Origin: an uncultured Alphaproteobacteria bacterium
GTDB lineage: Bacteria; Pseudomonadota; Alphaproteobacteria; RF32; CAG-239
Assembly: GCA_944390035.1 (NCBI GenBank)
Contig: CALXOP010000026.1
Span: forward strand, 1-40,034
DNA length: 40,034 nucleotides
Direction: 5' to 3'
Shown one piece after another: positions 2,750 through 15,928 of the stretch. A program made the position numbers and the translations under genes. Positions within the stretch are counted from its first letter, which is position 1; every line of letters starts with the position of its first letter. Below the pieces are notes generated by a model. That model was not told the DNA's origin, searched no databases, and worked only from the letters and a program-made list of their open reading frames with translations.

Positions 2750-3775
2750 ATGAAACTTTTTCGCTTGTTGGTCGGTTTAGGGGTGTTGATGAGCTCAGCC
2801 AATGGTGCATTGGCCGCAGAAGATGACGGTTTGCGCTATATTCAAACACGTGGATTGGTGCGTTGTGGAACGGACTTACAAACCAAGGCCTTTGCCAAGA
2901 AAGACGAAGATGGGTTTTGGCACGGGTTTGACGTGGATATTTGTAAGGCTATTTCTTATGGGGTGTTTAACCGCGGAGATCGCTTTCAGATGGTTGATGT
3001 CGCTCCCGAAAATGCAGCCAAGGCTCTGGCAAACAACAAAATAGATGTTATGCTTAGCGGTAGCAACTTCTCGGCTAAAGACGAAATCTCGTTGAAATTT
3101 ATGCCGGTGGATATTCTCTATTACGAGCAACAAACATTTATTGCAAAAAAAATTCCTGATGCTAAATCGATGGAAGCCTACCGCGGCGCAAAAGTTTGTG
3201 TGGTTGCAGATAGTGTTGATTATCACAATCTCTTAAATTACAGTGATACTTACAAACTTGACTTTAACCTGTTGTCTTTTAAAACAAAAAAACGTGCCGA
3301 AGAAGCATTTTTGCTTAACCGCTGCCAACTGCTCACAGGTAATGCTATTGTTTTACAAGCTCTGAAAGAAAAGCGTTTCAGCTCAAAAGATGATGTTGTT
3401 TTGTTGCCCGAACCGATTGCCGTTAAGCCGATTTATGCATTAGTCGATAAAAACAACAATAGTTTGCGCATTATCATTAAATGGATTTTTAATGCCTTAA
3501 AACTATCTGAAGAACACAATATTTCCTCACAAAATGTCAATATTTTTATCGGAGCAAAGGATTTGTCTTTGCAAAATCTGTTAGGAGACAATCCTGAACT
3601 TTGGGGAAAATTCGGGCTCTCGCCGAACTGGCTCAGAAATGCTCTTGCCGACATTGGCAACTATGGGGAAATTTATGAAAGAAATTTTGGCTCCGGTTCC
3701 GTGCTCAAAATTGAACGCAGAGGAAATAATCTAATGGGAAACGGCGGATTAATTATTGCCGAGCCCTTTATTTAA
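2750..3775 (+). CDS. AapJ-type amino-acid ABC transporter binding protein
   Basis: This is a periplasmic solute-binding protein (SBP_bac_3 family) of 341 residues from the ATG at 2750. An in-frame TTG at 2738 would add four residues but leaves the signal peptide less well placed. A signal peptide runs to an ALA-AED junction near residue 23. Features typical of AapJ/general amino-acid binding proteins are an early RGLVRCGT, a GFDVDICKAI ligand-pocket stretch, and a C-terminal NFGSGSVLKIERRGNNLMGNGGL extension. The likely role is capture of polar amino acids for an AapQMP-like importer, but no permease or ATPase gene is nearby, so it is an orphan here. No clear Shine-Dalgarno sequence precedes the start. 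The 3' end overlaps the convergent hydrolase gene by 8 nt. Confidence 0.88.
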   Translation: MKLFRLLVGLGVLMSSANGALAAEDDGLRYIQTRGLVRCGTDLQTKAFAKKDEDGFWHGFDVDICKAISYGVFNRGDRFQMVDVAPENAAKALANNKIDVMLSGSNFSAKDEISLKFMPVDILYYEQQTFIAKKIPDAKSMEAYRGAKVCVVADSVDYHNLLNYSDTYKLDFNLLSFKTKKRAEEAFLLNRCQLLTGNAIVLQALKEKRFSSKDDVVLLPEPIAVKPIYALVDKNNNSLRIIIKWIFNALKLSEEHNISSQNVNIFIGAKDLSLQNLLGDNPELWGKFGLSPNWLRNALADIGNYGEIYERNFGSGSVLKIERRGNNLMGNGGLIIAEPFI

Positions 3776-4571: not shown

Positions 4572-4970
4572 TTATTTCAGTAGGCTTTGTGTGGCATTAA
4601 AAATACCATTGACCGTATTGCTGCGAATTTTATATTTGGTATTCGTCCGGTTGGTCTTATATTGCTGATAGTAATCATAGTCATCTTCGGCAATATCTTT
4701 ATAGCCTTCATAAGCCTCTCGGTTTTGTTCGGCAAGAGCTGAGCCATCTCCGCTCATGCCCATTGCAGCTACGCGGGCACGGCGTTTGGCCAGATTTTCT
4801 TCCAAAATATTTTGTTTGGCCTGGTGATTGGCATATTGTTTATGCACCAAATCATATTGTTTGAGTTCATAATTATCACGAAGATTTTTATTATCTTCAA
4901 CCATATTATAAAGATCTTGTGTGGCGCTGGTTCCCTTGCTGGTGTTTTGTGCCGTCATTAAGTCTCCCAT
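4572..4970 (-). CDS. Small phage virion protein, possibly gp14-like
   Basis: This 132-residue, highly helical, charged protein is the last gene of the particle cluster, 12 nt after tail tubular protein B. A good ribosome site AAGGAG sits 7 nt before the ATG at 4970. The stretch LAKRRARVAAMGMSGDGSA (about 80-98) between long helices recalls short internal virion proteins of the T7 gp14 type, which often carry an RA.....G..GSG turn in the same place; this is pattern memory, not a proven match. T7-like phages continue here with large internal core proteins (gp15, gp16) and fibres, all missing. It could instead be a tail-assembly protein. Assignment as phage-related is firm by position; the exact role is not. 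Confidence 0.6.
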   Translation of the reverse strand: MGDLMTAQNTSKGTSATQDLYNMVEDNKNLRDNYELKQYDLVHKQYANHQAKQNILEENLAKRRARVAAMGMSGDGSALAEQNREAYEGYKDIAEDDYDYYQQYKTNRTNTKYKIRSNTVNGIFNATQSLLK

Positions 4971-4982
4971 TTGTTTCTCCTT

Positions 4983-6887
4983 TTATTCTTTGAGTTTTAT
5001 TTCTGCCACTGCGGAAAGCAACGTAAAAGCAAGCGGTTCATTGCTTTTAATGCTCCACATCGGCTTGTTCATATCCCTTATCCACCCTAAAGAGCGCATT
5101 TGGACATCTCCGGAATAGGTCATCGGCGGTGCATCAAAAATCTGATCTTGATGAATCCTTTTTAAGGGATACTGAAAATATCCACCCCCAATGTCTATAC
5201 ACAAAGATTTTGAATTAATGATACGGAAACGAGCATTAATCACTCTCAGGGCCTTTGGCGCATAAGGATTTGTACTTTCAACCATATAAGGCAGCGGTTC
5301 TATCCAATGCTCATAAGGAATTCCGACCAAAAGTTCGGTTGCTTCATCTAAAAGGTGAATTTCGCCCTCTTCGACCAGAAATTCGCCTAAGCTAAAGCCA
5401 TTAGCCAGGACGACAACCTTTTCACCTTCCAGATTTTCTAATCCGCCCCAATCTCTTTGTGCCACATCCGAAGTCAGCCGGACGGCACAATCGGAATAAT
5501 AATCATCCGCTAACTTTTCCAGAAAATAGCCGTTATTCCGTTGTACACAAAAATAAATTTCGGTACCGATTATCGCTACGGATAAAAATTTTCCGGCAGT
5601 GGTTAATTTGCTCCAAGCCGTTACTTCCTCGGTCCGATATGTGGTCAGACAAGAAATGGTGCCATCTTCCAACACAATGTATAAGACGCAGGCATCTTGG
5701 TCAAAGCCCATATCTCGCGGGGCTTGGATAATATCATTTGCAAGGATTGTTAAATCCTTGGCTTGATAGGCTTGCTCAACATCGGTATAGAGAAACTCTC
5801 TTAATTGGCGGCCGCTTCTGGAGATAAAGACCGTTGCACCGTCAATTTGTTGCGGAGATAGTATCTTTTCCGAATATATTCCTACATTGGTTTGGCGTTT
5901 GAGTTGGATATTTTCAGGCGTTAGAGGTTCGCCCGTTACCATCCACTCGGCTCCGGTGGTAAACACCAACAGGTGTCTGGAGGAGACCACCGACTTAATG
6001 GCATTGACCTGGTCGGATAAAATACCAAACTCGATTGCCTCATCATCCAGCGCCGTTCCTAAGTCAAAATTGAACAAGTCAGATGATTTGGAAAACCATA
6101 AACGGTTGGGTAAATCTCTGGAGCCCCCGATGACCATGCGGTTTTGGTGAAAAGTTACTGATACCGGCCAACCTCTGGCATTAGAAAATGCCGATTCAGA
6201 CCAATCGTTGGTTTGCCCAGATGAGCTGAAATTTTTGATAACTTGCGCCTTAACCACTTTTGAATCAGTTACTTCAGTTATTTTAGCTAAGCCTTTTTGA
6301 AAGTTAATATAACTGCCGACATGGCTTGACATCCAAACGTCCGTATCGCAAGTCATGGTTACCGTTCCGCTGCTGCCGCTTGATTTCAGTTTGGGCTTTT
6401 TTTGATAGAAATTATAAAACGGCATAAAAATCATGCCATCATCATCCGTATAATATTCCCAATCTTCAATCTTCCAAACCTCATTATTGTTACGCGTGAT
6501 TTGTTTGGGCGGAACATCGGGATGAACAATTAAAAACGTATCGGCACTTTGAGTGTAGTTGAGCTGAAATAATTGTTCTCCGGTCCATGGGGTTTCTAAT
6601 TCGGCAATGACTTTGTCGTCTTTGAGCACTTGCAATTTATTATCCGTCAAACACAATAAATATATTTGCTCGGTATTAAACTCAAAAGGCAACAAGCGCA
6701 TGGGCTTTTCGATTTTGCTAATAAATTTGAGACCTCGGCGGCGGGAAACTCCGCCGGTGGGGTGAATAATGACATTTTCAAGATGTCTGGCACCGTTGGC
6801 ATAAATGCGCAAATCACCGCGGCCCAATAAATCCATTGAAACTTGGCCTGCCGTAAAATTGGTTTTTACTGACCCTAAGTTGCTCAT
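4983..6887 (-). CDS. Tail tubular protein B (T7 gp12-like nozzle)
   Basis: This 634-residue protein has the T7 gp12 / tail tubular protein B signature. The N-terminus reads NFTAGQVSMDLLGRGDLRIYANGARHLEN, followed by HPTGGVSRRRGLKFI and a long beta-rich propeller-like body with FHQNRMVIGGSRDLPNRLWFSKSSDLFNF and RQTNVGIYSEKI, all hallmarks of podoviral tail nozzle proteins. It forms the hexameric lower part of a short tail that attaches below tail tubular protein A. T7 gp12 is nearer 800 residues, but many relatives are shorter; both ends look natural. The start codon overlaps the upstream tail tubular A gene by 4 nt (ATGA), showing translational coupling. Confidence 0.92.
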   Translation of the reverse strand: MSNLGSVKTNFTAGQVSMDLLGRGDLRIYANGARHLENVIIHPTGGVSRRRGLKFISKIEKPMRLLPFEFNTEQIYLLCLTDNKLQVLKDDKVIAELETPWTGEQLFQLNYTQSADTFLIVHPDVPPKQITRNNNEVWKIEDWEYYTDDDGMIFMPFYNFYQKKPKLKSSGSSGTVTMTCDTDVWMSSHVGSYINFQKGLAKITEVTDSKVVKAQVIKNFSSSGQTNDWSESAFSNARGWPVSVTFHQNRMVIGGSRDLPNRLWFSKSSDLFNFDLGTALDDEAIEFGILSDQVNAIKSVVSSRHLLVFTTGAEWMVTGEPLTPENIQLKRQTNVGIYSEKILSPQQIDGATVFISRSGRQLREFLYTDVEQAYQAKDLTILANDIIQAPRDMGFDQDACVLYIVLEDGTISCLTTYRTEEVTAWSKLTTAGKFLSVAIIGTEIYFCVQRNNGYFLEKLADDYYSDCAVRLTSDVAQRDWGGLENLEGEKVVVLANGFSLGEFLVEEGEIHLLDEATELLVGIPYEHWIEPLPYMVESTNPYAPKALRVINARFRIINSKSLCIDIGGGYFQYPLKRIHQDQIFDAPPMTYSGDVQMRSLGWIRDMNKPMWSIKSNEPLAFTLLSAVAEIKLKE

Positions 6888-7453
6888 AACCTCGCCTCCA
6901 TTAATGAATAGTCTTCCATGGTGCGCGGCGTACCTTGTTGTGCATCCACCAGGCGTGCTTTATTGATGGTTTCTTCGGCCAATTTTTCCAGCAACTCCGC
7001 GCGCGTGGTGCTCTCGGTTAAGGGCAAACAAAATTCCGCCGCCAATTTGGCAATCAAGGCCTCACAGAAAAATGCCGGAAACGTGCTTTCATGCGGACGA
7101 AAGATGTAACTCAGGCTCACGTTTTCGGAATTGGTATGAAGTCTGTTTTCATAAATGCGATATTCTATACCGCGTCCTCGACGTCCGTTACCGGCAGAAA
7201 TTACTCTTAAAAAATCGTTGGGCAATAAGTAGGCATACTGGTAGTCGGCAACGGGAACATCATTTAAGCGCGGTAAAGTTTTTTGCGCTTTGGCAAAGCT
7301 CCACGGATAAGATGACAGCAAGCTATCACGAATCAGAGGATACAAGCTGTAGGCTATCTCTGCTTCCGCCGTACCGTCTTCAAACGAGGTGATGCCTTCC
7401 GCACCAATTTTTAATAATGCGTTGGAACAGATTCCTATGTTGGTGTAACTCAT
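6884..7453 (-). CDS. Tail tubular protein A (T7 gp11-like adaptor)
   Basis: This 189-residue protein from the ATG at 7453 has GGAG 7 nt upstream; an ATG four codons earlier (7465) is in frame but has no ribosome site of its own. The helical N-terminal part (NIGICSNALLKIGAEGITSF, then a YPLIRDSLLSSYPWSFA segment) and the LPNDFLRVI stretch are typical of podoviral gp11 / adaptor proteins. These form the dodecameric ring joining portal to nozzle. It follows an intrinsic terminator (7471-7507), so it begins the tail transcription segment, and it overlaps tail tubular B by 4 nt. Confidence 0.9.
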   Translation of the reverse strand: MSYTNIGICSNALLKIGAEGITSFEDGTAEAEIAYSLYPLIRDSLLSSYPWSFAKAQKTLPRLNDVPVADYQYAYLLPNDFLRVISAGNGRRGRGIEYRIYENRLHTNSENVSLSYIFRPHESTFPAFFCEALIAKLAAEFCLPLTESTTRAELLEKLAEETINKARLVDAQQGTPRTMEDYSLMEARL

Positions 7454-7470
7454 GAATTTCTCCATTGATA

Positions 7471-7507
7471 AAAAAGGAGAAACCTTTAATGCATAAAGGT
7501 TTCTCCT
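7471..7507 (-). terminator. Terminator between head and tail genes
   Basis: A perfect 14-bp inverted repeat (7475-7488 with 7494-7507, 5-nt loop) is followed on the minus strand by a T tract. It lies between the head accessory gene and tail tubular protein A, the same place as the T-phi terminator after the capsid gene in T7. Confidence 0.88.
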
Positions 7508-7534
7508 GCCTTTGCTATTAATGTGTGTATTTTT

Positions 7535-7792
7535 TTATGCCGCGGCAGAGCCTAACTCTGATACACTAACGGCGCCGTCTGCAATTGATGTGACAGCCAA
7601 AATTGCCGGCGAAATCGTGGTTTGATTATCGGCAATGGTCAAAATCATATCGCCAACACGGGCAAAAGGTGCAATATCATCAAAGTAATTTGCTCCCTTG
7701 ACGGTGTCTAAGGAATCCGATGAGGTGTAATTCCAAAGTGTAAAACCATTGGCATAGGCCATAACACTAAAATCTTTTGACATAAACGACAT
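7535..7792 (-). CDS. Small head accessory/decoration-type phage protein
   Basis: This 85-residue protein is encoded directly after the capsid gene (11-nt gap) with AAGGAG 7 nt before the ATG at 7792. The part from residue 11 (MAYANGFTLWNYTS) through ANYFDDIAPFARVGDMILTIAD matches a very common small family next to capsid genes in tailed phages, which I recall as uncharacterised. Its beta-rich sequence and position suggest a capsid decoration or stabilising protein; that role is inferred. A terminator follows at 7471-7507. Confidence 0.75.
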   Translation of the reverse strand: MSFMSKDFSVMAYANGFTLWNYTSSDSLDTVKGANYFDDIAPFARVGDMILTIADNQTTISPAILAVTSIADGAVSVSELGSAAA

Positions 7793-7803: not shown

Positions 7804-8643
7804 TTATTCACTGATTGAAGATTCTTCTTTGCACTTAATCCGAACAACACCGGTCGGGTCAATTAAGCATGCGCCTTGGCTCATCATATTATTGACAAAG
7901 TGAGCGGCATGGTCGCCGTGCCAAGTGATGTCGCTTTGGACATCTTGTCCGCAAGCGTGTCCGACTGCCGTTTTGTGGAAGATAAAGCATTGACGCTCCG
8001 TGCCGTTTAAGGGCAAACCGGTATGCATAATCCAGTTGATACCTAACCATTTGCGGCTTTCGGTCCCTTTCAAAAACGGCAGATTGTCGCCGGCATAGTC
8101 AGAATTTGAGAACTCGGCAATGTTGAGCAATGCATTCCATTGGTAAGGGCCTACCAAACCAAAACGTTGTCCGTCATCGGGAACATCGTTTGAGTTTAAT
8201 TTGGCAAAGGCATCCAAAATGTCTTTTTTGCTCATCGGCAGGCTATAATCCCCAACATCATTATCTGCCGGGGCTTTGCTCAAGGCATCAATAATCAATT
8301 CATCGGTTTTGCGACCCAAGGCATAAGCACCGGAATTGGCAATGACACGGCGCTCATCAATGCTGACTTTTAATTCATCCAAAGCATCTACCCAATCGCC
8401 GGCATAGTAGTCTTGAAGTTCGCACTCAATCGGGGTGTGGTCCAAAGACATTACCGGAACCAAGCCGTGGCGTGCCTTTTGTGAGGCCATGCCTTTACCG
8501 ACTTTTTGGAAGACGGTGGATGAGCCTTTGACATTGTTTTTGGTACGAACCGCATTTCTCAATTTGGAACCGTTTTGTTGGTAAGCCAAGTGAACATCGG
8601 CTTCAAATTGTTTGATAAAGGATTCGGTTATTTGTGTTGACAT
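7804..8643 (-). CDS. Major capsid protein (podoviral HK97-like)
   Basis: This 279-residue protein starts at 8643 with a strong AGGAGG ribosome site. The sequence follows the podoviral capsid family containing BPP-1 Bbp17: an N-terminal helix (ESFIKQFEADVHLAYQQ), the E-loop-like area rich in Lys/Val, PIECELQDYYAGDWVDALDELK at about 70-91, and a C-terminal WHGDHAAHFVNNMMSQGACLIDPTGVVRI. It should build the procapsid shell with the scaffold encoded upstream. There is no protease gene. Intrinsic terminators stand on both sides of the capsid and accessory pair, so this pair is a separately tunable expression unit. Confidence 0.92.
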   Translation of the reverse strand: MSTQITESFIKQFEADVHLAYQQNGSKLRNAVRTKNNVKGSSTVFQKVGKGMASQKARHGLVPVMSLDHTPIECELQDYYAGDWVDALDELKVSIDERRVIANSGAYALGRKTDELIIDALSKAPADNDVGDYSLPMSKKDILDAFAKLNSNDVPDDGQRFGLVGPYQWNALLNIAEFSNSDYAGDNLPFLKGTESRKWLGINWIMHTGLPLNGTERQCFIFHKTAVGHACGQDVQSDITWHGDHAAHFVNNMMSQGACLIDPTGVVRIKCKEESSISE

Positions 8644-8673
8644 ATTTTCCTCCTATTTGTGATTAACCTATAT

Positions 8674-8705
8674 AAAAAAAGCCCTGAAAGGTTTATTTTT
8701 CAGGG
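8674..8705 (-). terminator. Terminator between scaffold and capsid genes
   Basis: On the minus strand a CCCTGAAA / TTTCAGGG hairpin (8705-8698 with 8689-8682, 8-nt loop) runs straight into a seven-T tract. The left arm lies within the last codons of the scaffold gene. Transcripts reading towards the capsid gene must pass it. Confidence 0.82.
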
Positions 8706-9415
8706 TAGAGTTTTTCAAATCCGCGCGTAATCTTATTGATATAAGCACTGTCTTTGTCTCGCCAGTAACGCGGATCTTCCATCATCTTGCGTAAGGTCTG
8801 TTCGCTTAACTCGCCTTCATAGCCGTTATCTTTGCTAAGCATCGGTTCGTTAGACGACATCATCTTATACAAGGCTATTACGCCTTCGGCCGTTGAGCCC
8901 AAAGCGTCATAGACGTCCCCGCTCAAATTTTGTTTTGCCCAAGCTGAAATTTGGCGAGAGACTTCATCAAATCTTTCTCTGCCGCCAAAGTAATTTATCA
9001 GTTTGGCAAGCTGTTTTTGAGCCTCAAAGTTTACGGTCAACTGGTCTAAAACCGGAATGACACGTTCATTGGCCAAGTCATAAACAAATTGCGCCTGGTC
9101 GTTGGTGAAACCATGTTCATAAAACTGTTTGAACAATTCTTCATCGCGGTCCAACAATTCGTTTGGGATTTTTATCTGATATTGGTCGTAGCTTGCCGGC
9201 ATATTGCGGTTGTGCGTTTCTATCAGATTTTCATCTCTCATGGCCATAGAGTTATAGTCATCAATCAATTCTTGAAGTTTTACCGTTTGTGTGGCTTCAT
9301 CCCAGAATTTGGCCGACAAATTTTCCGGTTTTCCTTGTTTTGGGGCTGAAGGACCTGCACTCTGCGGTGCTGCAAGATTCATTGTGTTGAGATTTTCAAC
9401 TGGTCTTTCTTTCAT
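8693..9415 (-). CDS. Capsid assembly scaffolding protein
   Basis: This 240-residue acidic, mostly helical protein is encoded between portal/Bbp19-like and capsid genes, the usual place of the podoviral scaffold. It has a disordered Pro/Ala/Ser N-terminus (1-32), a central NFEAQKQLAKLINYFGGRERFDEVSRQISAWAK helix segment and a basic-acidic C-terminus (DPRYWRDKDSAYINKITRGFEKLYP). The sequence RYWRDKDPAYINKVTAGFQ-like ending is characteristic of T7-like capsid assembly proteins. It should fill the procapsid during assembly and leave later. AAAGGAAAAG precedes the ATG. Confidence 0.87.
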   Translation of the reverse strand: MKERPVENLNTMNLAAPQSAGPSAPKQGKPENLSAKFWDEATQTVKLQELIDDYNSMAMRDENLIETHNRNMPASYDQYQIKIPNELLDRDEELFKQFYEHGFTNDQAQFVYDLANERVIPVLDQLTVNFEAQKQLAKLINYFGGRERFDEVSRQISAWAKQNLSGDVYDALGSTAEGVIALYKMMSSNEPMLSKDNGYEGELSEQTLRKMMEDPRYWRDKDSAYINKITRGFEKLYPEK

Positions 9416-9433: not shown

Positions 9434-9655
9434 TTAATTGTCGTCTGATATCTTGTTTTGGATTATGGCAACCAAGTGTCTTTGCCCTTCCAGATGACGC
9501 AACGCATCAGAAGAACTTTCGGGTCCCAAATATCGCTCCTGTGTCAGACGTTTTAGGTAAGAGAGGACTATTCTCCCTTCCCTGCTCGAAAAGCATTTTA
9601 CAAATGCTTCACGAATTTGTGCTTCCGACATTTGTCGGGTATCATACGGCTGCAT
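9434..9655 (-). CDS. Bbp19-like small phage protein
   Basis: This 73-residue protein overlaps the 3' end of the portal gene by 14 nt. The pattern (AFVKCFSSREGRIVLSYLKRLT at about 17-38, then a Gly-Pro-Glu-Ser turn and a HLEGQRHLVAIIQNKI helix) matches the short family typified by Bbp19 of Bordetella phage BPP-1, found between portal and scaffold genes. Its function is not established; a role in head assembly is likely from position. Confidence 0.72.
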   Translation of the reverse strand: MQPYDTRQMSEAQIREAFVKCFSSREGRIVLSYLKRLTQERYLGPESSSDALRHLEGQRHLVAIIQNKISDDN

Positions 9656-11168
9656 TGTCGCTCTCTTGGTTTTCCGGTGTAGGAGTGGGCTGTGTTTCCC
9701 TGATTAACTGCGTTGGAACGCAAAGGGTTTTGCCCAGCCATCTTGAGGCTTCTTCCACATTGACGGCACTCAAGGCATCTTGTCCGAAGGTGGCAAGCAT
9801 TGACACCCACTCGCTGACATTGGTGATGTCTTTTCGGGTTTGGGCCAATGCCAGAGGCGATTTATACTGCAAGTCAACAATCTTTCCATCCAAGTCAAAA
9901 TTCGGAATATCACCGCGGCGGCGCAGAATATGAAAGGCGCGTTTTAAGAGCGGGGTCAGCAGCTCTGATTGCAGACGTCCAAATGTGGCGCCTAAGATTC
10001 TTGCAACTTCTGCCGAACGCTCCAAAACTTCCGTTGCGGTCATGTTCGGGGTGGCAATTTGTGCCAGCCTGTCGGCCAGCAACGCATGGTTTATTCTTTG
10101 ACGCAAATCAGAAAGAATAAGCTGCGAAACATCAAAATTACCGGGGGCACTCAGCGGCGTTAGGCCTTTTGAGCCCACCGCTTTGGGAATAATGGCACCC
10201 GGCACGAGTTTGATATTGTCGGGATTTAAGATGCCGTCATCATCCGCTTGCCAGATACCGGTTACCGAAATAGAGGCATTTTTCAAAATCAATTCCACAA
10301 CTTTGTTGGCGGTCTTAATATCCGGCAGAGCTTTCATGACCGGAGAACGGCCATAGACTTCTCCCGGCGCCTTGAGCCAACGAAAGTTGATAAACGGCGA
10401 AGTTTCAAAGATGCCTTCTTTTAAGATACAACTCTCTTCATAACCGCTGTTTTCATCCCAAGCAAAGGCAATATAATTATAACCACATGCTCCGGCATTG
10501 TAATTTCGCGGCAGAACGGCTTCAATGATACTGAGTTTATAGTCTCGGTCTTGCTCCAAACGCTCCTGCAAAAAGGGCGGAATTTCTGCTTCGGGAAAAC
10601 GGGTCCGTATGCCTTCCAAATTGAGTTTTGAGCAACGAAACGTGGTATCAATTTTGCCATCCGAACTTTCCTCTATGGCAATTTCGCGCAAAGGAACTGC
10701 ATAAAAATGAAATGCCGTGGCCTCTCCGACAGCGGCTTCTTCAAACATTAAACAAGCCGTACCGACGGTTACCAAATCAAGATAACATTGGTGAACTTCG
10801 ACGGCAAAATTAGAATGCTCAAAATTTTGCAGCATAATCTCCGATGATTTATCCAAAATCGGGGCGACTTGTTCTTGCTCGGTCGGACTTAACTCATTGC
10901 CCGGTTTGAGCCCAAACCACTTGGCCCACGGCGGCGTTAATTCCGACAATAAAGATGAGGCCAACTGGTCAACCGCATCAGGTGCCGTGCCATCAAACAA
11001 ACATAGATTTTTCTTGGAGCCTTGCGGAGTATCTCTACCAAAAGAACTCACGTTTTCTCTTAGCGGAAAAGCATATTCGTAGCATTCACGCCAGTGCTCC
11101 TCCCAATTTTGTTTGCGTTCGGCTGCCTTTTTATAGCGGCTGACCAATTTTTCAATTTGCTGCTCCAT
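9642..11168 (-). CDS. Portal protein (T7-like head-tail connector)
   Basis: This 508-residue protein is of the podoviral head-tail connector family. The N-terminus has SRYKKAAERKQNWEEHWRECYEYAFP, then LFDGTAPDAVDQLASSLLSELTPPWAKWFGL (about 46-76), the classic start of T7 gp8-type portals. Later NFRWLKAPGEVYGRSPVMKALPDIKTAN and MTATEVLERSAEVARILGATFGRLQSELL are also diagnostic. The dodecamer forms the DNA gate at one capsid vertex and binds TerL during packaging. Full-length and intact. GGGAGAA lies before the ATG, and the small gene 11171-11392 ends 2 nt upstream. Confidence 0.95.
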   Translation of the reverse strand: MEQQIEKLVSRYKKAAERKQNWEEHWRECYEYAFPLRENVSSFGRDTPQGSKKNLCLFDGTAPDAVDQLASSLLSELTPPWAKWFGLKPGNELSPTEQEQVAPILDKSSEIMLQNFEHSNFAVEVHQCYLDLVTVGTACLMFEEAAVGEATAFHFYAVPLREIAIEESSDGKIDTTFRCSKLNLEGIRTRFPEAEIPPFLQERLEQDRDYKLSIIEAVLPRNYNAGACGYNYIAFAWDENSGYEESCILKEGIFETSPFINFRWLKAPGEVYGRSPVMKALPDIKTANKVVELILKNASISVTGIWQADDDGILNPDNIKLVPGAIIPKAVGSKGLTPLSAPGNFDVSQLILSDLRQRINHALLADRLAQIATPNMTATEVLERSAEVARILGATFGRLQSELLTPLLKRAFHILRRRGDIPNFDLDGKIVDLQYKSPLALAQTRKDITNVSEWVSMLATFGQDALSAVNVEEASRWLGKTLCVPTQLIRETQPTPTPENQESDNAAV

Positions 11169-11403: not shown

Positions 11404-11763
11404 TCAGTTGTTGGGTGTTTGATTGGACTTTGAAGATGGCTTGGGTGTTTTGGGTTTGGGCTCGGTTAGGCTTGTGCTTTTAACGACCGAGATGCCCATC
11501 ACGCCCAATGCCATACTCCAAAGTGATGTTGTTTCAACAAATGCCATAATAATTTTTTCCGCTCTGGGATGATTTATCCAGACAACCCAGCATATCGTGC
11601 TCATTTGCAAAACCCATGTCAGGCATACCGAATAGCCAAAGAGCGGACGCCAATTACGCTCCCAAGACGAAGCATGCCTTTTTCGTCCTAAAAGCGTGTT
11701 GCCACAAAAAAATTGACGCATGATTTTCATCAGCGTCATTGGTGCTTTTGTTTTAAAAATCAT
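11404..11763 (-). CDS. 3TM holin (GTA_holin_3TM family)
   Basis: This 119-residue protein matches the family named for holins of gene-transfer-agent release. After a basic N-terminus, NWRPLFGYSVCLTWVLQMSTICWVVW starts the hydrophobic part, with membrane segments near 42-62 and 75-95, and a hydrophilic Lys/Pro/Ser tail follows. The NWRP..GY opening of the membrane region is diagnostic of this family, which occurs in both phages and GTAs. The holin should permeabilise the inner membrane so that the endolysin encoded upstream reaches peptidoglycan. The ATG directly follows the endolysin TAA, so the two are coupled. Confidence 0.82.
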   Translation of the reverse strand: MIFKTKAPMTLMKIMRQFFCGNTLLGRKRHASSWERNWRPLFGYSVCLTWVLQMSTICWVVWINHPRAEKIIMAFVETTSLWSMALGVMGISVVKSTSLTEPKPKTPKPSSKSNQTPNN

Positions 11764-12180
11764 TTATTTCTCTATGTCATTATAGAAAAGATGACGACCT
11801 ATTTCGGCACAGGGAATTTTTCCTCTGGCCCAAGCAGGATTGGTGCTTTTGGTGTGATAATGCGTGGCATGCGACGTATTATCCTCCAAAAGTCCCGAAA
11901 TGGCTCTGCCGGCAATGCGTTTGCAAATACAAAAAATGATATCCGTATCCGAAACTTTTTGGAGCAAAGCATAGTTGGAATCAGACTTGTTCCAACACGA
12001 AAATTGGTAAGGATAACGACAAATCTCTTTTATCGTATTGCCCCACCAATAACGTCCTTTCTTTTGGCTAAATGCCAAGCGATTTAAAACAACTGAGGCG
12101 ACAGCTTCCATACCGGATATGCTCTCGCCTCGTGCCTCCCCATAAATCGTGCGGGCTAATGTGTCTAAATCTTCACTCAT
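11764..12180 (-). CDS. SleB-type cell wall hydrolase (endolysin)
   Basis: This 138-residue protein is a compact Hydrolase_2 (SleB) domain. It starts LARTIYGEARGESISGMEAVASVVLNRL (about 6-33), with the conserved Glu in YGEARGE as probable catalytic residue, and continues WGNTIKEICRYPYQFSCWN, the family's W....VC..P.QFSCW motif. SleB-like enzymes are lytic transglycosylases or related glycan cleavers. There is no signal peptide, so export needs the adjacent holin. It overlaps the upstream coiled-coil gene by 4 nt (ATGA) and abuts the holin: a three-gene lysis cassette. Confidence 0.9.
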   Translation of the reverse strand: MSEDLDTLARTIYGEARGESISGMEAVASVVLNRLAFSQKKGRYWWGNTIKEICRYPYQFSCWNKSDSNYALLQKVSDTDIIFCICKRIAGRAISGLLEDNTSHATHYHTKSTNPAWARGKIPCAEIGRHLFYNDIEK

Positions 12181-12464
12181 CTTGACCTCCCGACTTCATC
12201 AAGTTTTTTCTCAATACGCAATAAGTGATTGGTTAAGCGATTTTCAACATCTTTCAGGTAGCCGGTGGAAACATAGTTTCTGGCAACGTGTAATTTGAAG
12301 TCGGCCAGTGATTCCTTGCAAATATCAACCCTGCCCTCAGTATGTGTTTGGGTGGCCAGAAGCTGTTCCTCGATTTCTTTTCTTTGTTTGACCAACATTC
12401 GAAAAACCGCAACAAACAACGGTATTTCAATCATTGCTATCCAATTTATCAATTCATTAAACAT
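12177..12464 (-). CDS. Small membrane coiled-coil phage protein
   Basis: This 95-residue protein has an N-terminal membrane segment (about 4-23), a basic KQRKE junction, and a long coiled coil (about 25-90) containing DFKLHVARNYVSTGYLKDVENRLTNHLLRIEKKLDEV. Proteins of this type are common beside endolysins in alphaproteobacterial phages. It may be a second holin, a spanin-like or a holin-associated protein; I cannot decide. The 3' end overlaps the endolysin start by 4 nt; AAGGAAG precedes its ATG. Confidence 0.68.
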   Translation of the reverse strand: MFNELINWIAMIEIPLFVAVFRMLVKQRKEIEEQLLATQTHTEGRVDICKESLADFKLHVARNYVSTGYLKDVENRLTNHLLRIEKKLDEVGRSR

Positions 12465-12475
12465 GGTTTTCTTCC

Positions 12476-13963
12476 TTATATGCTAAAATTGGTTTGCGCC
12501 TTAAACTGGCCGGAATTTCCCTGCCAAGAAAAGCGTTTGTAGTCGCTCATATCAACATAAGCTTGCGTGAAACGTATCGGCTCTGAGGACAAGCAACCGG
12601 CAACCGCGTCTAACCCGTCATCATGCACACTGCCTTCGGTGTTCCACTCCCGCATTTCCTCAATAAACGGTGTGTTCCATATTCGGCGGTGAGCATTTAG
12701 CGCTCGCTCTGCCAACAAAACCTCAAAGGCCTCCAAAATGCGTGCGGCTTTGTTGGTAGATGAATACATCTCTAAAACTGCCGTACGAATTTTACGCCTT
12801 TGCAGGGTTTGCTTTAAGATTCCCGGTAAAAACTTACCAATACCGTTAGCCTCAACGCGAATGGACGGCAGGTGATTACGCTCAATAAAATCTGCGACCT
12901 TTTCACATTGGAGCGAGGCTTGATTGTCTTGTGACTGCGCCGTCAATTTGATATATTCAACATCATGGAGCCAAAACTTGCCATCCTCATCGGTAAAGAC
13001 ACAAGCAATGACGCTGTTATCTCCCGACGCGGAAGCAAAAGACGGGTCCCACCAGCAAGATGCCGACAGCAATTTTTTGTCACCTAAGTGCAAAACCTCA
13101 CGACCGTTGGCATAAGTTTGGGTCAGTTCCAAATTGTAAACACACAATCTTTCCGGATTGAGGATGCAATCTCTGAAATTGACCGGTTGCAACATCATCT
13201 GCGACAAGAACTTATTTTCTCCCGAACGCTGCCGTAAAGAGGCAATTTTTTCTACTGAAAAACGCTCAGGCCAACTGCTTTGATTTTTCTTATCCAAAAT
13301 CGGAATTTCCAATTTTTTGAAATTGAGCAAAAACGGCTCAATCTCCGGACGCGAATTATCATAATCCACCTGATAGATGGTATAAAACGTATGCGGTGTT
13401 CCGATATATAACTGCATGCCTTCAGGCGTTAGAATATAGTCCAACTCCTCGAGTTTTTCCCTGAGCTCAATTCGTTTGAGCGGAGTATCGCAGTTTTTTG
13501 GAACCTCAACGTCATCACAAATAATCAAGTCGGCGCGCAAGCCCGTGATATTTGCCCCAACGCCTTTGGCCAACATGGATGGGTCTCGCAACTCCATATC
13601 CCGCCTAATGGTGAACTGGTCTGAGGCCCATTGTTCCAGCTTTTCGGGCTTGAGCTGCCGTGTTAAAGGGTGCTGTTCTATAATGCGTTTGACATTACGC
13701 ACCATCTTTTTGGCCAGAGCATGATCGGCAGCCATGACCAAAATTCTGGTTGAGGGCTTGGTGTACAAAACCCAGGCACAAAAAAGACCGACAATGGTGG
13801 ATTTGCCTGAATTGCGAAATGCCATCAAGAGTCCTTGTCGGTCTTGCTCGCTTTGCCAAAGAGTGCTCAGCCACTTGGCAATTTTGCGTTGGTGTTTCGG
13901 GACTTTCAGATTTTGCAGTTTGAACCAGATGTATATAAACTCATAAAAACTAATCTTGTTCAT
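12476..13963 (-). CDS. Terminase large subunit
   Basis: This 495-residue DNA-packaging motor starts at the ATG at 13963, 14 nt inside the end of the upstream gene; an in-frame TTG at 13999 would give 12 more basic residues but is a poorer start. The ATPase domain shows a Walker-A-like AFRNSGKST (about 48-56) and Walker B LIICDDVE (about 146-153). The RNase H-like nuclease domain has WWDPSFASASGDNS (motif I Asp) and HDDGLDAV near the end (motif III Asp). All catalytic motifs look intact, so it could package DNA. It resembles the podoviral T7 gp19/BPP-1 group more than siphoviral terminases. Confidence 0.93.
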   Translation of the reverse strand: MNKISFYEFIYIWFKLQNLKVPKHQRKIAKWLSTLWQSEQDRQGLLMAFRNSGKSTIVGLFCAWVLYTKPSTRILVMAADHALAKKMVRNVKRIIEQHPLTRQLKPEKLEQWASDQFTIRRDMELRDPSMLAKGVGANITGLRADLIICDDVEVPKNCDTPLKRIELREKLEELDYILTPEGMQLYIGTPHTFYTIYQVDYDNSRPEIEPFLLNFKKLEIPILDKKNQSSWPERFSVEKIASLRQRSGENKFLSQMMLQPVNFRDCILNPERLCVYNLELTQTYANGREVLHLGDKKLLSASCWWDPSFASASGDNSVIACVFTDEDGKFWLHDVEYIKLTAQSQDNQASLQCEKVADFIERNHLPSIRVEANGIGKFLPGILKQTLQRRKIRTAVLEMYSSTNKAARILEAFEVLLAERALNAHRRIWNTPFIEEMREWNTEGSVHDDGLDAVAGCLSSEPIRFTQAYVDMSDYKRFSWQGNSGQFKAQTNFSI

Positions 13964-14267
13964 CTTCCGCGTCGTCCAAATCCGCCCTTGCTTCCGCAAG
14001 CAATTTCAGAATATCTTCCGTGCCTGATGAGGTTGTGCTTTCAGACGTTCCGTCTTCGGTCCACTTGGCCAACTTTAACAAAGTTTCGGCATGCGTCACC
14101 GCTGATTTGCAGGCGCTGTGGTGTGCACTAAAGCCTTTGGCATCTTCGGGAATAGGTCTTTCCGAAAATGTTTCATAACTCTCTAACACCTGTGAAACCT
14201 TTTCGGGAAGAGTCTTTTGCAAGTTTTTCTTTAAGGACTTTAAGGTCTTGGCCTTTTTGAAATGCAT
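13950..14267 (-). CDS. Phage protein upstream of TerL, possible small terminase
   Basis: This 105-residue protein has a very basic N-terminus (KKAKTLKSLKKNLQKTLPEKV), a central helical part and an acidic tail (LLAEARADLDDAEDEQD). It is encoded directly before, and overlapping, terL, where a small terminase subunit normally lies. Size and helical content fit; no recognisable HTH is seen, so the call rests on position. A strong AAAGGAG ribosome site precedes the ATG, and an intrinsic terminator lies only about 32 nt upstream of it, so this is the first gene of the particle transcript proper. Confidence 0.5.
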   Translation of the reverse strand: MHFKKAKTLKSLKKNLQKTLPEKVSQVLESYETFSERPIPEDAKGFSAHHSACKSAVTHAETLLKLAKWTEDGTSESTTSSGTEDILKLLAEARADLDDAEDEQD

Positions 14268-14298: not shown

Positions 14299-14331
14299 AA
14301 AAAAATTCGCTAAGGCAAAATGCCTTGCGAA
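14299..14331 (-). terminator. Leader terminator before the particle operon
   Basis: On the minus strand TTCGC-AAGGC-ATTTT-GCCTT-A-GCGAA (14331-14306, one unpaired A) is followed by seven Ts. It stands between the upstream pair of genes and the first particle gene, leaving only about 32 nt before that ATG. A promoter placed upstream of it would be attenuated unless antiterminated. No convincing promoter fits after it. Confidence 0.8.
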
Positions 14332-14399
14332 TCTGACTTTGTTTTGGGCACACTAATAGCAAGTGGCGTTTTTGTATGTAGCAAATTTTTTTTCGTTTG

Positions 14400-14813
14400 T
14401 CAAGAACTTTTTCCTACAATTTTTAATATTTTTTTATAAAGCTGCCACGGCGTATGGATGAAACAATCGTGCAACCCTATAACACGCTTAACAAATTCAA
14501 CACAGGTAAAAAAAGATAACGGCGCGCATTTGAGCGGTGCTTGTGCAATTTCTATCGGACACAAAATCACATTGCGACTTCTGCGAATATAATCGGCAAA
14601 ATCAAAATTTTCGGGATAATCATAAACAAAAACCGCTGTTTGATTAGACAGAGGATTAAGCTCGACCCAGAGCCCGCATCCTCTGAGTTTTAGCAAAACA
14701 TAACAATGCCTAAATCCGGGTTTGAGGAGCCTTAGCCACCACAAAGTTGTATTGTCGGCAAAGACAACATAACATTGCTCGCAAGCCTTGGGCGCAAATA
14801 CATCTAACCTCAT
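14400..14813 (-). CDS. Permuted papain-like (NlpC/P60-type) phage protein
   Basis: This 137-residue protein has a His-containing strand GFRHCYVLLKL (about 32-42) followed by WVELNPLSN, and later FTCVEFVKRVIGL (about 103-115) and a TPWQLYKKIL tail. His before Cys is the order of circularly permuted papain-like/NlpC-P60 folds; C105 is the likely nucleophile and H35 the base. Similar short proteins occur in alphaproteobacterial phage regions. The substrate is unknown; peptidoglycan peptides or an acyl amide are possible. It overlaps the upstream gene by one base and is cut off from the particle genes by the terminator at 14299-14331. Confidence 0.6.
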   Translation of the reverse strand: MRLDVFAPKACEQCYVVFADNTTLWWLRLLKPGFRHCYVLLKLRGCGLWVELNPLSNQTAVFVYDYPENFDFADYIRRSRNVILCPIEIAQAPLKCAPLSFFTCVEFVKRVIGLHDCFIHTPWQLYKKILKIVGKSS

Positions 14814-15145
14814 TATGCCAGTATTCCCAAGGCTAAAAGCCAGCCTTCAAGCGCATGTAAGCCTTCATCCCAGAGTCTGATTTCGCTCCTTTTGGCGCGA
14901 TAGTGATAATAAGGGGAACATTCTAACTTGCCCCACTTGACCATAACCCGCAGGTGGCGATTGGTGATTTGATGATTTAACTTCATCTTTTTGATGATGC
15001 GATAAATATCTGCAACCTCACAATTTCTGATTTTTCCTTTGAAATCGTTGCAGGAGCGTAATCCGCCGTCTCTTGCCATAATGCAACCGCAAAACCAAAA
15101 CCAAACCTCTTCGGCATTATCAAAAGGCTCATAATCCTCTCGCAT
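14813..15145 (-). CDS. Phage-associated 110-aa protein, possible late regulator
   Basis: First leftward gene after the divergent promoter region; AGGGGG precedes the ATG at 15145. The protein starts with a Trp-rich helix (EEVWFWFCGCIMARDGGLRS, about 12-31), then a CEVADIYRIIKKMKLNHQITNRHLRVMVKWG segment resembling a short DNA-binding helix pair, and ends LWDEGLHALEGWLLALGIL. I recognise the general pattern (W..W...R..G, DV...V..L, H..VL..YG, W..A...L) from alphaproteobacterial phage regions but know no function. Its place just before a leader terminator and the late genes would suit an antiterminator or late activator; that is inference. Confidence 0.6.
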   Translation of the reverse strand: MREDYEPFDNAEEVWFWFCGCIMARDGGLRSCNDFKGKIRNCEVADIYRIIKKMKLNHQITNRHLRVMVKWGKLECSPYYHYRAKRSEIRLWDEGLHALEGWLLALGILA

Positions 15146-15161
15146 TTAGTTACCCCCTGTT

Positions 15162-15189
15162 TTAAGATTCTATCTTAACTAATCGTTAA
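15162..15189. promoter_or_regulatory. Two overlapping palindromes, candidate operators
   Basis: TTAAGAT-tct-ATCTTAA (15162-15178) is a perfect 7-3-7 palindrome; it shares bases with TTAAC-taatc-GTTAA (15175-15189), a perfect 5-5-5 palindrome that also reads TTAA-N7-TTAA, the form of a CtrA site. They lie between the leftward -10 box and the ribosome site of the gene starting at 15145, where bound protein would block the leftward transcript. Confidence 0.5.
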
Positions 15190-15197
15190 TTGTTATT

Positions 15198-15225
15198 GTT
15201 ATATATTAGGTTGTAGGAATTTCAA
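15198..15225 (-). promoter_or_regulatory. Leftward promoter of the phage cluster
   Basis: On the minus strand TTGAAA (15225-15220) and TATAAC (15203-15198) are spaced by 16 bp, upstream of the gene starting at 15145. The -35 abuts one arm of the TAGGAAT/ATTCCTA repeat (15214-15220 and 15241-15247). Confidence 0.55.
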
Positions 15226-15266
15226 CATAAAAAAGAATTGATTCCTAAAATTTTTTGGTGTATATT
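15214..15266 (+). promoter_or_regulatory. Rightward promoter of the S24 regulator with inverted repeat
   Basis: TTGATT (15238-15243) and TATATT (15261-15266) are spaced by exactly 17 bp. Arms TAGGAAT (15214-15220) and ATTCCTA (15241-15247), 20 bp apart, touch the -35 boxes of both divergent promoters. A repressor bound here could control both, including its own gene. The ribosome site AAGGAGG at 15297-15303 is very strong. Confidence 0.6.
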
Positions 15267-15307
15267 ACTTTTATTCTTATAAAAATCTAAGAAAACAAGG
15301 AGGCACA

Positions 15308-15928
15308 ATGCAATACGAACAAGTTTGGGATGCTGTTGATAAGTTGGCAAAGTTACACGGTTTGTCCCCTTCCGGTTTGGCTAAAAAAGCCGGTTTGGAT
15401 GCTACAACCTTTAATAAGAGCAAACGAATTCGACATGACGGCAAACAACGTTGGCCTTCCCTTGACAGCATTAATAAAATATTGGAAGCCTGCAATATTT
15501 CTTTTGAGCAATTCTATCAACTCATTGATGATGATTTAGCCCTCAAACCGGCGGGAATCCCCTTTATCTCTTATTCGGAGTTGGCAGGTATGGCCGTGGT
15601 TAAGGCCTCTAAACTTGTTACCGATAAATGGGACAACACTCAATTTCCGGAAAGTTCCGTTAATTTGTATGCCATTAATTTGGACTCGGCTGATTTTGAA
15701 CCGATGTATCGCAAGGGTTATACCTTAATTGCCACCAAAGACCCTGAAGTGCGTAAAGGTGACCGGGTGATTGTGTTGCGAAACAAAGGTCTGCCTTTAA
15801 TCAAAGAATTTAAGCACCGCACGACTTCTACCATTGTCTTTGGCGACATTTTTAACCCCAAGCAAGATGAGCAAGTCAAAATTGATGATATTAAACTCAT
15901 TAATCGAATCGTGTGGGCAGAACAATAA
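15308..15928 (+). CDS. LexA/CI-type HTH-S24 phage repressor
   Basis: This 206-residue protein has an N-terminal XRE-type HTH (about 5-72; helix pair around SPSGLAKKAGLDATTFNKSKR) and a C-terminal S24/LexA-like domain. All self-cleavage elements are in place: an Ala-Gly bond at 93-94 (ELAGMAVV), Ser127 (LDSADFEPM) and Lys166 (LPLIKEF). Their spacings (34 and 39 residues) are close to LexA. Such repressors cleave themselves when stimulated by RecA-ssDNA, so DNA damage could induce the divergent particle genes. It has a strong promoter, AAGGAGG ribosome site, and palindromic candidate operators upstream. Similar regulators also exist as ordinary chromosomal genes in Alphaproteobacteria, so a phage-only role is not certain. 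Confidence 0.85.
   Translation: MQYEQVWDAVDKLAKLHGLSPSGLAKKAGLDATTFNKSKRIRHDGKQRWPSLDSINKILEACNISFEQFYQLIDDDLALKPAGIPFISYSELAGMAVVKASKLVTDKWDNTQFPESSVNLYAINLDSADFEPMYRKGYTLIATKDPEVRKGDRVIVLRNKGLPLIKEFKHRTTSTIVFGDIFNPKQDEQVKIDDIKLINRIVWAEQ

Follow-up and report, generated by a model that had tools for sequence, protein, structure and literature searches.

The divergent promoter region described here appears to be the control point of a RogA-type repressor circuit which keeps a domesticated podovirus cluster, a candidate gene transfer agent (GTA), silent; we place the probability of this reading at roughly 0.7. The computational analysis started from a 40-kb window (the whole stretch of 40,034 nucleotides), a single contig from a MAG of 1.52 Mb that is 75% complete. 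The features of the promoter region and of the genes on either side of it are as follows.

15308–15928, forward strand: RogA-like regulator of 206 amino acids with an HTH_26 and a degenerate S24 domain (Pfam S24 4.8e-5, HTH_26 2.6e-4)
15238–15266, forward strand: promoter P_R of the regulator gene, TTGATT (15238–15243), 17-bp spacer, TATATT (15261–15266)
15232–15247, forward strand: predicted operator O_R, AAAGAATTGATTCCTA, which encloses the rightward −35 box
15214–15229, forward strand: predicted operator O_L, TAGGAATTTCAACATA, which encloses the leftward −35 box
15198–15225, reverse strand: promoter P_L, TTGAAA (15225–15220), 16-bp spacer, TATAAC (15203–15198), serving the g110–g137 operon
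15175–15189, no strand assigned: CtrA box TTAA-N7-TTAA, at about +2 to +16 of P_L
14813–15145, reverse strand: g110, the first gene from P_L, with a predicted Q21-like antiterminator fold
14400–14813, reverse strand: g137, a conserved partner gene which adjoins g110 in most loci class-wide

Back-to-back promoters had been proposed in the earlier note, and both can be read in the sequence at these positions. The hexamer matches alone are at chance level, with seven promoter-like sites compared with 7.4 expected, and conservation was therefore examined instead. In an alignment of 27 intergenic regions from relatives both hexamer pairs are kept: the −35 box of P_L is invariant and its −10 box is conserved, as are the −35 and −10 columns of P_R. 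The segments GTTGTAGGA[A/T]TTTCAA, the A-tract and GA[A/T]TTGATTCCTA are almost invariant in the same alignment. Judged by this conservation, the divergent promoter region is real and functional. We also note a GANTC (CcrM) site at 15240–15244, within O_R, which is present in 27/27 relatives, including loci in which neighbouring operator bases have changed (L004 and L020). The overlap of the −35 box and the operator could force this conservation.

The arms of the inverted repeat that was said to touch both −35 boxes, TAGGAAT (15214–15220) and ATTCCTA (15241–15247), are indeed present, and the arm region is almost unchanged across the 27 genomes, but a pair of 16-bp operators, each containing one −35 box, accounts better for the repeat. 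Two results lead to this reading. The palindromic motif TAGGAATATATTCCTA was learned de novo from 36 regions upstream of regulator genes in other families, with the present family left out, and its PWM ranks O_R fourth of 40,019 positions and O_L fifth in the window, the first rank being taken by a third site, O3, which is described below. Furthermore, two sites as good as O_L and O_R within 162 bp arise in only 0.06% of dinucleotide shuffles. Both sites belong to the TAGGAA-N4-TTCCTA family with one strong half-site apiece, and O_R is conserved in the family. Their centres lie 18–20 bp apart, or about two helical turns, the distance varying with the A-tract. Ten genomes with the cluster were tested, and every one has a single exact copy of the core O_L sequence; two further genomes tested, in which the regulator has been retained and the cluster lost, do not have it.

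Two overlapping perfect palindromes had also been noted downstream of P_L. Both TTAAGAT-TCT-ATCTTAA (15162–15178) and TTAAC-N5-GTTAA (15175–15189) are present and share the bases TTAA, but they do not form a pair of operators. The first was considered as an operator and rejected: it is seen in the window alone, not even elsewhere in the same genus, and a palindrome with 7-bp arms occurs in 27% of shuffles, so that it is best regarded as a chance occurrence. The second is, by its sequence, a canonical CtrA box and would bring the operon under host cell-cycle control; it is the one palindrome that is conserved in homologous loci. Its TTAA-N7-TTAA pattern is invariant in 27/27 relatives and stands 20–22 bp from the operator block, at a near-constant distance from O_L. 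The pattern itself arises in 9% of shuffles. The genome encodes GcrA as well as a CtrA orthologue, the latter 67% identical to a Caulobacter CtrA query sequence. The box is confined to the family, being found in none of 30 upstream regions from elsewhere in the class, and TTAACY-N5-TTAAC shows no genome-wide enrichment over the reversed control. The CtrA assignment therefore draws on local conservation and the presence of the orthologue.

CtrA may act on P_L with either sign. In Rhodobacter capsulatus the CtrA site coincides with the gafA start and its mutation lowers gene transfer (PMC6363796), and there is perhaps slightly less than an even chance that CtrA activates P_L in the same manner rather than repressing it. 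The position of the box, at about +2 to +16, is the one usual for a block. Activation of an alternative leftward promoter was considered and discarded, as no second promoter fits between the box and the start codon.

As judged from sequence and model comparisons, the regulator and its motif probably belong with RogA, which represses gene transfer agents in Caulobacter. RogA is a LexA-like repressor which lacks key autocleavage residues, and Gozzi et al. found that it binds the gafYZ core promoter, which carries two GGAA-N4-TTCC inverted repeats (PMC9632790). The same features are found here: a protein of about 210 residues with an HTH and a C-terminal domain like those of LexA and CI, a missing serine, and two sites of the GGAA-N4-TTCC type in a core promoter. 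The structure predicted for the regulator by AF2 resembles LexA and CI repressors; a sequence search of the PDB gave no match. In aligned members the nucleophilic serine has been lost in this family (ADFEP, compared with GDSMEP in other families), which makes RecA/SOS autocleavage unlikely. The core of TAGGAATATATTCCTA, which was found independently, is GGAA-N4-TTCC as at the Caulobacter RogA sites.

Genomes outside the family point the same way. In genome G128 the best PWM match in 7.5 kb (L401, 3578–3593) is located just upstream of a gafYZ-like gene pair, of which the gafY-like gene was read as DnaA-like from sequence and the gafZ-like gene is a DUF6456 (PF20057) gene; matches to this family are also found in Caulobacter. 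At 3610–3640 of the same locus the gafYZ-like promoter contains TTAACGAAATACGTTAA (TTAA-N9-TTAA), which resembles a canonical CtrA box without being one. Family f60 is probably Caulobacteraceae, given a CtrA identity of 87–91%, and in two of its genomes the top PWM match is directly upstream of the regulator gene. The regulator is only 34–35% identical to single f60 homologues, which served as the comparison for RogA (CCNA_00080). Class-wide, 118 of 386 genomes have an orthologue of the regulator; within the family the figure is 34 of 126.

The leftward side of the switch faces a cluster of phage genes, which read away from it as listed.

13950–14267, reverse strand: g105 (phrog_31793)
12476–13999, reverse strand: terminase large subunit (terL), T7 type (NF033889, 5.7e-123)
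11404–12180, reverse strand: cell-wall hydrolase and GTA-holin-like gene, for lysis (PF07486, 3.5e-20; PF11351, 6e-4)
9642–11168, reverse strand: portal or head–tail connector (PF12236, 7e-139)
8693–9415, reverse strand: T7-type scaffold (PF05396, 2.5e-19)
7804–8643, reverse strand: major capsid protein (PF19821, 1.7e-75)
4572–7792, reverse strand: tail tube, nozzle and the small genes at the end of the cluster (phrog_394, phrog_376; PF25675)

The earlier statement that this cluster is without replication genes is borne out by profile searches, which found neither replication nor integration genes in the cluster region; nor was a tail-fibre gene recognised there. The arrangement had been described as a lysogeny-type switch, and what stands of this description is a predicted repressor-controlled divergent switch with an S24-type regulator. 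It is not a CI/Cro toggle, g110 not being Cro-like. Divergent promoters, a regulator of CI/LexA fold, phage structural genes and an antitermination logic would all suit the lysogeny switch of a classical temperate podovirus whose prophage is intact or recently defective. We consider this unlikely and disfavour it. The cluster has no integrase, replication or Cro-like gene, the S24 nucleophile has been lost, and the capsid of the nearest isolated phage is only 43% identical. The fixed locus and the congruent trees presented below weigh against it further.

A third operator and a second promoter at 14375–14416 were missed in the earlier note. With the elements downstream of them they are as follows.

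14401–14416, reverse strand: predicted operator O3, TAGGAAAAAGTTCTTG, first in PWM rank in the window and present in 17/17 clusters, overlapping P2
14375–14403, reverse strand: late promoter P2, TTGACA, 17-bp spacer, TACATA, upstream of g105–terL, with its −35 box conserved in most of the 17 clusters
14351–14365, reverse strand: leader element CACTTGCTATTAGTG, at about +4 to +18 of P2, present in 17/17 clusters with one variant
14299–14332, reverse strand: intrinsic terminator, located in the leader of P2 ahead of g105–terL

When further strong operators were sought as pointers to particle genes elsewhere in the genome, O3 proved to be one of only two exact matches genome-wide, and the leader element keeps a near-constant spacing from it. 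A terminator hairpin followed by a T-run is found in 17/17 clusters, with ΔG values of −9.6 to −16.8; the stems diverge in sequence, yet all 17 fold. The P2 transcript thus meets a terminator before it reaches its genes, which suggests antitermination. An antiterminator was expected on this basis before the fold of g110 was searched, and a Q21-like fold was then predicted. The AF2 model (pLDDT 85) matches six Q21 entries with Z scores of 5.9–7.3, the best unrelated entry scoring 2.7; all of these values lie below 8, the safe level of the tool. By Foldseek alone the match to Q21 is weak (E above 1), so that the resemblance is a lead and not proof. No HTH family was matched by g110, and Pfam and NCBIfam gave nothing useful for either g110 or g137. 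We regard g110 as a candidate Q21-like antiterminator, with the model as the lead.

The cluster is at one fixed locus, is vertically inherited and is under purifying selection. The portal gene was found at high identity in 23 of the 126 family genomes, and where regulator and portal lie on one contig the gene order and the host flanks (MlaC-SBP-esterase on one side and g169-yhdP-prfB on the other) are the same; among the loci with a name are those of Azospirillum sp. CAG:239 and of further uncultured Alphaproteobacteria from the gut. Trees of host genes and of the cluster have 11 of 13 splits in common, with a patristic correlation of r = 0.96. No well supported host split is contradicted, and one cluster split (96%) is missing from the host tree. 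The dN/dS values of the compared clusters are mostly 0.01–0.2 and the reading frames are intact. We note that synonymous divergence in same-genus comparisons is 0.3–0.8 in the capsid, scaffold and lysis genes (7804–9415 and 11764–12464), compared with more than 1.1 in the flanks, which may reflect codon constraint or recombination within the cluster.

The association extends beyond the family. Among the 386 class genomes the capsid was found in 59, the regulator in 118 and both in 50 (Fisher p = 4e-21, a value which is only indicative as related genomes are not independent). In 33 cases the regulator and capsid genes lie within 16 kb of one another, and 31 of these pairs are divergent; in other families, too, regulator genes adjoin a related capsid cluster. 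Some rumen and gut relatives from other families (L122–L176, for example L125:5507 and L130:2774) instead have an HTH-only regulator of about 80 residues, co-directional with the cluster. A perfect TTTCCTAGGAAA palindrome, in which the operator halves abut, is often found upstream of this short regulator. One 829-kb contig with this alphaproteobacterial cluster (L115, JAISVX010000003.1) carries the title ‘Lactobacillaceae bacterium’ and is a mislabelled MAG.

Exceptions to this pattern of retention bear on a second alternative, in which the cluster is a decaying cryptic prophage and the promoter region is conserved only through some other host function of the regulator. In one genus (L085–L093) the regulator directly follows the esterase gene and the whole cluster has been lost. 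In another genome (L084, G027) the terL-to-capsid part is missing while the switch, g110, g137, tail tube and nozzle are kept and a distant portal gene is found on another contig; this is a decaying copy or one with relocated genes. The cluster is moreover patchy in the family. We find decay improbable as a general account, given the purifying selection and intact frames of the compared clusters. The operators are gone from the upstream regions of the regulator-only genomes examined, and both O3 and the terminator are conserved although they serve the cluster alone.

Many matches in the viral collection are contigs of about 10 kb which resemble the chromosomal clusters (L177, L178 and many of L179–L256), and presence there was for this reason not counted as evidence for a free virus. 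Contigs of this kind, of which L177 and L178 include the host flank g169, are unlikely to be free viruses. A 5-kb clone from human faecal samples, titled ‘Bacteriophage sp.’ (L403, MT838907.1), has a capsid gene which is 80% identical.

The circuit might instead control a particle that transfers nothing, either a tailocin-like killer or one kept for lysis or release of cells' contents. The lysis genes would be in keeping with this. Tailocins have neither heads nor terminase, and here the terminase, portal, scaffold and capsid genes are all conserved, a full set for DNA packaging. We hold such a function to be improbable as well. Phage structural and packaging genes that stand without replication or integration genes, are inherited vertically and are under purifying selection are features of a GTA, and the cluster is a candidate gene transfer agent, possibly of an undescribed kind.

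In the RogA-type circuit that we infer, dimers of the regulator would bind O_L and O_R and cover both −35 boxes, so repressing the early operon g110–g137 and the regulator's own gene, while a further dimer on O3 would block P2, the late promoter. Gating by the host, through the cell cycle or nutrition, would be added by CtrA at the P_L start, with either sign. Once repression is lifted, g110 would allow polymerase from P2 to pass the leader terminator, and read-through would extend transcription into the genes for terminase, capsid, tail and lysis, the products of which may form particles that transfer DNA.

Comparison with known systems indicates that the closest is RogA–gafYZ of the Caulobacter crescentus GTA (PMC9632790, PMC11150451). 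Both have a repressor of similar size consisting of an HTH and a catalytically defective LexA-like domain, and in both a core promoter carries a pair of GGAA-N4-TTCC sites. In each, a terminator lies within the phage-like cluster, and the controlled genes switch the cluster on through activation and antitermination; for the present system this is predicted from sequence and fold. In contrast to Caulobacter, the repressor gene here is divergent from the cluster, its predicted sites lie on the early, the late and its own promoter and would act directly, the particle genes are of podovirus rather than RcGTA type, and none of the family genomes searched gave a GafZ-type (DUF6456) gene. The R. capsulatus gafA promoter (PMC6363796) likewise has a CtrA site at the start of an operon, which here would encode an activator, but P_L has RogA-type operators in addition and g110 is not GafA-like by sequence. 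Phage 21 offers a parallel for a late promoter with a leader terminator and a Q antiterminator, the predicted fold of g110 being Q21-like, although the sequence identity is only about 6%. TTAA-N7-TTAA sites are also found at the genes of the CtrA-controlled phages that show ‘lytic deferment’ (PMC9437464), whereas here there is one box at a chromosomal, vertically inherited cluster and no lytic phage. The λ-type CI/Cro switch differs in having an opposing Cro-type repressor and a regulator which undergoes RecA-dependent autocleavage. FpGTA of Faecalibacterium, which was put forward as the first podovirus-like GTA-like element (PMC12946183), is similarly of podovirus type and from gut bacteria, but its host is a Firmicute, and the present cluster is alphaproteobacterial and would package DNA by prediction. 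We did not find such a cluster in Alphaproteobacteria described in the open-access literature, which does not prove priority.

Tentatively, and with odds that we would put somewhat below even, these observations could be extended to a second, class-wide kind of GTA in Alphaproteobacteria that is built from a podovirus. RogA would originally have been its own repressor, as suggested by the divergent placement of the repressor gene across many families, and would later have been recruited to the RcGTA-type cluster through gafYZ, with the gut lineage being wired to CtrA and a Q-like antiterminator.

Homologues of RogA are present in 819 of 1,331 alphaproteobacterial genomes and their targets are mostly unknown (PMC9632790); a class-wide operator motif together with an adjacent, probably direct target provides a testable map of their roles. 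The switch is a compact case in which host cell-cycle control, phage-type repression and antitermination would be joined. Should the podovirus cluster give rise to transducing particles, GTAs would have evolved at least twice in the class under one repressor family, and gut bacteria with reduced genomes would be retaining a GTA under strong selection.
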